A stretch of 64,000 nt of DNA from Tubulanus polymorphus (Eukaryota > Nemertea > Palaeonemertea > Tubulaniformes > Tubulanidae). Position 1 is the first letter of the stretch, and every line of letters starts with the position of its first letter. Below the pieces are notes generated by a model, which saw only the letters and a list, made by a program, of their open reading frames with translations, was not told the DNA's origin and did not search any database. Positions 7,367 to 41,357 of this stretch are shown here, piece after piece. The translations under genes and the position numbers were made by a program. The stretch is from assembly GCF_964204645.1 (NCBI RefSeq), contig NC_134025.1, forward strand, positions 8,933,001-8,997,000, read 5' to 3'.

Positions 7367-10300
7367 TCAATATGGCCGCCAAACGCCGCTTGGCTCAATG
7401 GACCCGCTATCTAAATTGTGCACGCTTAGAGAAGAATCGTTACTGCTATTTCCCCCTTCGCCGCTTGGAATCGAAATCGCGTTGGTAGGAAACTCCAGCA
7501 CAGGACGCGGAATGTCATCCGTTAAACGATGTAGATTTTGTTGATGTTCGCTAATGCGGGTACTTGTACCCATCAAACCGAACAAAATGTCGTCATGGCG
7601 CGGCCTGCTACTCTGTTCTAGGTCGGTGAGGTGTCGGCTACCTTCTGTGGGCGACGTGCGATTCTGAAAGAGATCGCCGCTGACGCCAGTATGCTGCTGG
7701 GGTGAACTAGGGTAGATTTGAGGATACAGAAAGCTCGGTGATAATACAGGCGTTGGTGAACTGAAAAAAGACGGCGACAACGGAAAACTGCTCGCTAAAG
7801 ACGTCTCTGTCGGAGTTGTCGTCGGGAAAAACGTGTGCGGAGATAATACTGGAAAAGGACTATGATGAGACGCTGGTAAATGCAAAGTAGTAAGCGAACG
7901 ACTTTGTTCTAGAATCGCCATATTGGATGTGCTGTGTGAAAACGACAGGCCCGTGCTGGGCGATGAATACAATGAATCTAGATGACGCGCTTCTGGAATT
8001 CGGATATCGTTGTTAAGCGACTGATAACGCGGCGGCAGTGTAATGGATAACGGGTCCATGATGGTTCGGGTGCTGGTTCCCGAACTAGGCAAGCTGAGCT
8101 CTCTTGGCGGGCTAAGATTGCTGCCTCGATCGTTTGATGGTATCGGCCTCCCGTTGACGGTATCCGATAGAAGTTCCAACTGCGGGGAGCTGGAGAAAGG
8201 TGCACTGTCAGTTATCGTAGGCCCCGGCTGGGTGACACTTACTACCGATGGACTGGCGGATAATTGGTGCGGCAGCAATGATGACATCACCCCTGGCAAA
8301 GAAAAAAAGAAACAGGAATAAATATCAAGCAAAAACCTTTAAGAATATTTATGATTTATGATTCACGTATCACGCTAAATTTACCTTGCGTTTGAGTTCC
8401 GATAGGTGGTGTAGCTTCTAATCCTCGATAGGAAAGACAATTTGTTGTTACGATGTTAGGCGTATATGGAGCACTTGCCGTCGTATAGTTCAAAATACCT
8501 ACAGGACAGCTGTCAACTGCAATGTAAAATTTCAGTAAGATTCTATAAGCATTTCAATACAAAATTAACGAAATGCATTCATGAAGTACAAGAAGCTAAA
8601 TTAAAAAGAAGGCTCCGAAATGTGGCGTGGCAAGGCTATATTCGCCATGTTGCCGCGACAGGAAACCTTTAGTCAAGCCGTAAATTAATGACTATGATTG
8701 CAATTCATGTCAGCCGATGTCGAGGTTGACTTTCAATTTCATTTTTACTGAGGAAGGTGTATCTGATACAACGAGTGGGCAGAATATATTTGGTGGACGC
8801 GCATTGTGTCCAGAACTCGGGGGTTTGCATTCGCAGATTAACGAGTGAATCAAAAATTAGCCAAGAACGGAGATGATAGAAAGTTGAAACGGTTTTTGTT
8901 TCGGGTGATGATAAAAAAGATGACGTTATTTTAAAAAAAACGCTTATGTCATCTTTGAAGGTGCCTCAATGTAGTAAGTAGATCAAATTCATTTTTCATC
9001 TTTCACCCCGATTGGTTTGAAATTCATTGTACATCAGCGATGAGAATATTCGAGGCGGAAGTTGAGAGATTGATAGCGGATTTTCCTCAATTAGCTACAC
9101 CGAGTTGGCCGTCAAATTTCAGACAGATGACTTTTGCTTCGGTAAACCATGCTAACATAGCTTGAAGAATCGGCGTACTCCTCAAAGTTCTATCTGGTAA
9201 TTTTTCACATTTAACATTGGTTCAATAGGCTTCTATTTAGGCATGTATGAACAGATGTTTAAGGATCCAAGTCGTCATAAAAGTTCTAAGTATATATGTC
9301 TTATGGATAAATGAAATAAACTTGTAATAATGAGCAATTCCTGAATAATATTAATTTAGAATTGAAGTTTGTCGATTTTATTTCAATAAAAGAATTATTT
9401 ACCCGCTGGGGAACTTCGGTAAGCATTGTCGACGTGGGTTCGACGTAGCTGATCGAGATCGATGATATTACTGGTGAGTCGTCTGTCCAATAAAGGATCG
9501 CCGACCAGACGGTTCCCAGTCTCTGATAATGAAGTTCTCGTGTCGTGAATTTGTTGATCGTTTGTTCGCAGTTCTGGAAAAAATCAAGAAACGAATCTAG
9601 TGAGAAATTAACGTTACATATAAACAATTGATTCACAAATAGGTTAGTGAGACTCTGAACTCGACTTGGTCACGGGAACGAACCGTTATCATATGAAAGG
9701 TCACATGTCACGACATGGCTCACGATGTTTATCGAGTAATTTAGACAGATGTCACAAAATGAAAAGCTTCACTCGGAGAAGATTGATTTATTACCAATCT
9801 GGGAAAGATGCTTGAATCATTTCCAGTAAGGCGGTCGACTGTCCCCGACACAAAGCGCTGAAAAAACAGCATATCAAGTGTCACGCGAACGACCAGCAGT
9901 CAAACCGACAACCGTGGCCAAACCCGCCGTGATTGATTGATTTATACAGATTCGTGTGCGCTGATACCACGCGAAGATGTTTTAGAAACCAAAATTGATC
10001 AAACACTCTCCTCTGGTGTGTTCATCGATGATGGTTGTTGCAAAAACTATAGCCCTCTGACAATTGTCAGGCCAAAGAATTTCCATTTTTATCTCGTATT
10101 TGATAGCGAAGGAATAAAATCGCTATCTATTCATAACTGTCATGGGTTTTCAGTACATACTAGAATATTTACGTTATTATAATATCGTAAACAAAGCCTC
10201 TAATAATAGATTGGTAATACAAGAAACGTGATGATGCTGAGGACATAAGACACACCCAGCACTTTAGTAGGCGCAAGTACTCATTTTCATAATGAAAAAA

Positions 10301-41000: not shown

Positions 41001-41357
41001 CGTACCTCTGCCACTTCTTCCAACAAATCGAAGATCGTTGAATTTGGCAACTTGGTTTTTCATGAATGCGACCGCATTTCTTAATTCTCCACAGAAGTTT
41101 TCGTCGTTTCCCGCCGCAACGATGACTTTGGTGCCGTCTTTGATTTCGCCCAAAGCGACCACTTTGAAAGATACGGGCAATGTTTTGTTTGATCGCCAGT
41201 GCATCGGAAGCACCGAACACACGAAATTAGGACTCCCCGTCCGTACCAGTTCGCCAGGGTGTTCGTTCAAAACGGTACCCAGTGTTCTTTCGCCGGCAAG
41301 AATGTCCACCATATCAGGGAACGGTGTGGGACCGTTCATATCCAACGGTAAATGCAT
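29078..41357 (-). CDS. Runx: Runx family transcription factor, copy B (Runt domain, VWRPY end)
   Basis: Second, tandem Runx gene with the same role as copy A. Coding exons (minus): 41357-41006, 38525-38421, 32023-31853, 30176-30027, 29937-29078; phases agree and the product is 545 aa. The Runt domain spans about residues 23-153 ([58 protein letters not shown]) and is about 80% identical to copy A. The third exon is 171 bases in both copies and holds LDQFRR. The fourth holds a PWP motif near [11 protein letters not shown]. The tail keeps LTSLHLP and FLYPHIY and ends PVTVWRPY. The start MHLPLD matches the proximal vertebrate peptide; an upstream in-frame ATG at 41408 would add 17 unrelated residues and is less likely. 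The stretch after the Runt domain (PREPRKLRADDRR) replaces the usual PRRHRQK signal. A minus-strand AATAAA (29053-29058) lies just past the stop. Confidence 0.94.
30177..31852. other. Runx-B intron 3
   Basis: A 1.7 kb intron between the LDQFRR exon and the PWP exon. No gene or strong repeat seen; a short CCCCAAG/CTTGGGG inverted pair occurs near 31.57-31.60 kb. Confidence 0.7.
34321..34449. promoter_or_regulatory. GATA-factor motif cluster in Runx-B intron 2
   Basis: AGATAAGG (34321-34328), CTTATCTC (34346-34353), TGATAA (34366-34371) and GCTTATCTA (34441-34449) fall within 130 bases. An E-box CAGCTG lies about 1 kb to the left. Seen directly as motifs; enhancer function is inference. Confidence 0.3.
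35796..35830. repeat. Perfect 12-base-arm hairpin
   Basis: TAGTATAGCATA (35796-35807) is followed after 11 bases by its exact reverse complement TATGCTATACTA (35819-35830), in an AT-rich run with further TACTATA units. It lies in Runx-B intron 2. Probably low-complexity drift. Confidence 0.8.
38526..41005. other. Runx-B intron 1
   Basis: A 2.5 kb intron splitting the Runt domain after GRSGRG, at the same position and phase as Runx-A intron 1. Open frames at 39612-39866, 39994-40221 and 40407-40616 show no family resemblance. No repeat recognised. Confidence 0.7.

Follow-up and report, generated by a model that had tools for sequence, protein, structure and literature searches.

The eumetazoan ancestor is held to have had one Runx gene, which arthropods and vertebrates duplicated independently (PMC2527000). 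Insects and Daphnia each have four Runx genes, clustered to varying degrees; Ixodes and the spider Cupiennius have two, and the sea urchin has several (PMC2631020), again duplicated independently. A single Runx gene is described for Capitella and one predicted homolog is mentioned for Lottia, both reportedly without VWRPY (PMC3359188). Tandem duplication of Runx is an ordinary type of event, known independently in insects and crustaceans: the insect cluster (runt, lozenge, RunxA and RunxB) and that of Daphnia, like the pair described here (copies A and B), are made up of intact Runx neighbours that arose by tandem duplication and were long kept (PMC2631020). The Pancrustacea differ in having four genes, and published trees put the duplications independently within arthropods, whereas the animal studied here is a lophotrochozoan. 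Vertebrate RUNX1, RUNX2, and RUNX3 have the same Runt DNA contacts and the same VWRPY end as A and B, but those copies are products of genome and segmental duplications, each on a chromosome of its own. We found no description of a Runx tandem in a lophotrochozoan in a literature search that left subscription papers mostly outside, which is weak evidence of novelty.

We rebuilt the gene models from the DNA of the window, the whole 64-kb stretch analysed here (8,933,001 to 8,997,000 of contig C1, a contig of 32 Mb in a genome of 267.8 Mb and 77 contigs). The window contained two intact Runx genes, both on the minus strand and arranged head-to-tail, with copy A 14.8 kb downstream of copy B (Table 1). 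Both have five coding exons, the second and third of which are of the same length in the two copies (114 and 171 nt), and all eight introns are GT..AG introns of phase 1, meaning that the codon is split after its first base. Both open frames end in VWRPY-stop, the Groucho motif, and an AATAAA follows each stop within about 55 nt. These models were built from the sequence alone, and exon 4 of each copy was placed by frame and splice sites only. The first-pass annotation had described two complete tandem Runx genes with a common five-exon plan, identical phases, a 171-nt third exon, and a VWRPY end, and the rebuilt models agreed with it on each of these points, down to the outer coordinates. In echinoderm and Nematostella Runx genes, as in A and B, the N-terminal part of the Runt domain is in a single exon (PMC2527000). 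Any retroposition event would be limited to a part of protostomes.

Table 1. Features of the Runx pair and of the genes upstream of copy B (positions are those of the window).
Feature	Position	Strand	Remarks
Copy A, coding region	7367..14237	-	1722 nt coding, 573 aa
Copy A coding exon 1	13859..14237	-	379 nt; MILPTD start; first three-quarters of Runt domain; phase 1 end
Copy A exon 2	12590..12703	-	114 nt; end of Runt domain
Copy A exon 3	9403..9573	-	171 nt; DPLLDRR motif, common to copy B
Copy A exon 4	8385..8516	-	132 nt; placed by splice sites and frame only, without similarity to copy B
Copy A exon 5	7367..8292	-	926 nt; VWRPY-stop end; AATAAA at 7313
Copy B, coding region	29078..41357	-	1647 nt coding, 548 aa
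Copy B coding exon 1	41006..41357	-	352 nt; MHLPLD start; first three-quarters of Runt domain
Copy B exon 2	38412..38525	-	114 nt; end of Runt domain
Copy B exon 3	31853..32023	-	171 nt
Copy B exon 4	30027..30176	-	150 nt; placed by splice sites and frame only
Copy B exon 5	29078..29937	-	860 nt; VWRPY-stop end; AATAAA at 29058
SAND-domain gene (DEAF1/GMEB-like)	52338-53000	+	upstream of copy B
Catalase gene, part	56735-57103	-	upstream of copy B
Kinesin, motor at C-terminal side	59677-62802	+	upstream of copy B

Next, we looked at family membership and key residues. Each copy matched the Pfam Runt profile (PF00853) at 224 bits (E value of about 4e-67) over positions 3-129 of 129, so that the domain is complete, and this was the sole Pfam match of either protein. 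The Runt part of both copies also matched PDB chains of RUNX1 and RUNX2 (E values of 1e-55 to 1e-65). An intron characteristic of the Runx family has been described within the Runt domain (PMC2527000), and both copies carry an intron within the domain, of phase 1 and splitting the glycine codon that separates GRSGR from KSF. Compared with RUNX1, the Runt domains of A and B showed 73 to 76% identity, below the 81% that they share with each other. At the 11 RUNX1 positions that we take to be DNA contacts (R80, R135, R139, R142, K144, K167, T169, V170, D171, R174, and R177), both copies had the identical residue throughout (11/11). RUNX1 C72 and C81 are the two redox cysteines of the domain; the former is retained and the latter is serine in both copies. 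T161, which we assume to be a CBFbeta contact, is replaced by I in copy A and by S in copy B, and Y113 is F in copy B. A search for Runt-domain relatives in viral and prokaryote collections, made for a tree, returned none.

The two copies were then compared with each other. Identity was 81% in the Runt domain (106/131) and about 34% outside it in a forced alignment, in line with the earlier estimate of about 80% for the domain and with the earlier remark that the remainder had diverged strongly. In the Runt region, pS was 0.83 and pN was 0.14. Base frequencies predict that 25% of fourfold codons with a common residue would agree at the third base; the count was 10 of 43, so the synonymous sites are randomised. 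A DNA comparison of the two loci detected similarity in exons 1, 2, and 3 only and none between their introns, flanks, or intergenic sequence. Synonymous saturation and the lack of noncoding similarity together therefore exclude alleles, haplotigs, and a recent duplication. Adjacent placement of haplotigs is a known assembly artefact, and the first-pass annotation had named alleles or haplotigs as a finding that would speak against two genes; given the random fourfold identity, the 34% identity outside the Runt domain, the absence of noncoding similarity, and the location of both loci on one chromosome-scale contig of 32 Mb, such an artefact is vanishingly unlikely here. The other concern raised there, that one copy might be silent or decaying, is very improbable as well. 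Both frames are open, all splice sites are canonical, contact residues are intact, and poly(A) signals are present, with no visible decay in either sequence. In simulations of neutral drift between 0.1 and 1.0 changes per site, none of 900 copies kept open a coding frame of comparable length, and a Tajima test against human RUNX1 gave 8 and 5 private changes (P value = 0.41), that is, no rate asymmetry between the copies. On these grounds we rejected a pseudogene. Because the frames stay open, the rates are even, and pS far exceeds pN, both genes have long been subject to purifying selection, a conclusion that does not imply present-day expression.

To place the pair in its genome, we used the PF00853 profile to search the assembly. 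Four exon matches were obtained, corresponding to two genes, both in the window and on the minus strand; the searched assembly yielded no Runt locus other than copies A and B. One locus was found for CBFbeta (on contig C3, four exons matched in order), one for RCAN (on C1, 4.6 Mb from the Runx pair), and one for CLIC (on C7). A homeobox search detected one Hox cluster (C6, 5318228-5634753, about 316 kb) with at least ten genes in order on one strand: a Post2-like gene, two with a UbdA-type peptide (Lox2/Lox4), an Antp-like gene, and a Lox5-type KLNGP gene, followed by Scr-, Dfd-, Hox3-, Hox2-, and Hox1-like genes. Judged by these signatures, which were assigned by eye, the Hox gene set is lophotrochozoan. 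Profiles of the annelid haemoglobin linker and of molluscan haemocyanin gave no matches, a result of little weight for the choice of phylum, and a search of the assembly for mitochondrial cox1 was negative. Because one locus each was found for CBFbeta, RCAN, and CLIC and one Hox cluster was detected, the Runx duplication looks local, as the annotation had proposed, and we rejected a whole-genome duplication, for which no second locus of the three genes was found. An ancestral Runx-CLIC-RCAN cluster was likewise rejected, with RCAN 4.6 Mb off on the same chromosome and CLIC on another. This arrangement agrees with the published view that the three genes are unclustered in invertebrates (PMC3896409).

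The reading that we favour, with a probability of roughly 70%, is an old, lineage-specific tandem duplication of a single ancestral Runx gene in a lophotrochozoan lineage, after which both copies were retained as functional transcription factors. That this event was independent of the insect cluster follows from two points, the published single-Runx bilaterian ancestor and the lophotrochozoan Hox evidence. The earlier proposal, that the duplication was local and independent and that neither copy was lost, stands as the most likely reading. A minority possibility of some weight is that the pair is older than the lineage, being ancestral to many lophotrochozoans or spiralians, and that single genes elsewhere reflect loss or incomplete annotation. 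The saturated synonymous sites and the nearly unalignable tails point to a very old event, the published single-gene counts draw on a small number of species and on early assemblies (PMC3359188, PMC2631020), and one copy may have been lost in the Capitella and Lottia lineages. Against this, A and B are more similar to each other than either is to RUNX1, and their exon lengths of 114 and 171 nt and their phases are still identical, although both observations are still compatible with an early lophotrochozoan origin.

A lineage-specific duplication would extend to a lophotrochozoan the series of independent tandem Runx expansions known from arthropods. Capitella, Lottia, and oysters have one reported Runx gene, versus two here, and both A and B hold the Groucho motif that is reportedly missing from the published Capitella and Lottia genes. 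Each copy would be expected to bind DNA through its Runt domain at the consensus TGYGGT and to pair with the genome's one found CBFbeta, and the VWRPY of each could recruit the corepressor Groucho for repression. Both copies most probably persisted because the duplication was followed by a division or change of their expression and of the functions of their diverged tails, and the split of expression or function suggested in the first-pass annotation is, as far as sequence can indicate, a reasonable expectation for A and B. Since A and B share CBFbeta as their one partner, the pair offers a test case for the way in which the work of a developmental regulator is divided once its gene has been duplicated.

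We also considered whether the two genes form one complex locus. Read-through from the B promoter could splice the Runt half of B to the exons or tail of A, yielding a chimeric Runx, with ancestral roles divided between the neighbours. With all introns of the two genes in phase 1, exons of B and A could be joined in frame, and, if this were true, chimeric Runx proteins would exist in addition to the two separate ones. We give this arrangement little credence. Cross-regulation through Runx sites was rejected, since the window showed no excess of such sites (21 against 25.6 expected).

The stretch between A and B showed no gene with a recognised domain, and no structural RNAs were found in the 64-kb window. 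For the PATL1 neighbour named in the annotation, a candidate gene lies upstream of copy B on the same strand, so that position and strand fit, while the profile support is weak (best Pfam PAT1 match at an E value of 0.005, below the cut-off).

Finally, the start peptides of the two copies are akin to each other, and their MxLPxD form resembles the P2 start MR(I/V)PV of vertebrate RUNX genes (PMC3974841). A search upstream of A and of B for a distal first exon of the vertebrate MASDS type gave nothing convincing. In copy A, between window positions 14200 and 14240, a candidate AG acceptor (CTACAG, cut before AT, at about 14221) falls where the start peptide ends, presumably the point where vertebrate RUNX P1 transcripts splice in; it reads ATGATTCTACCTACAG followed by ATTCG and is absent from copy B.
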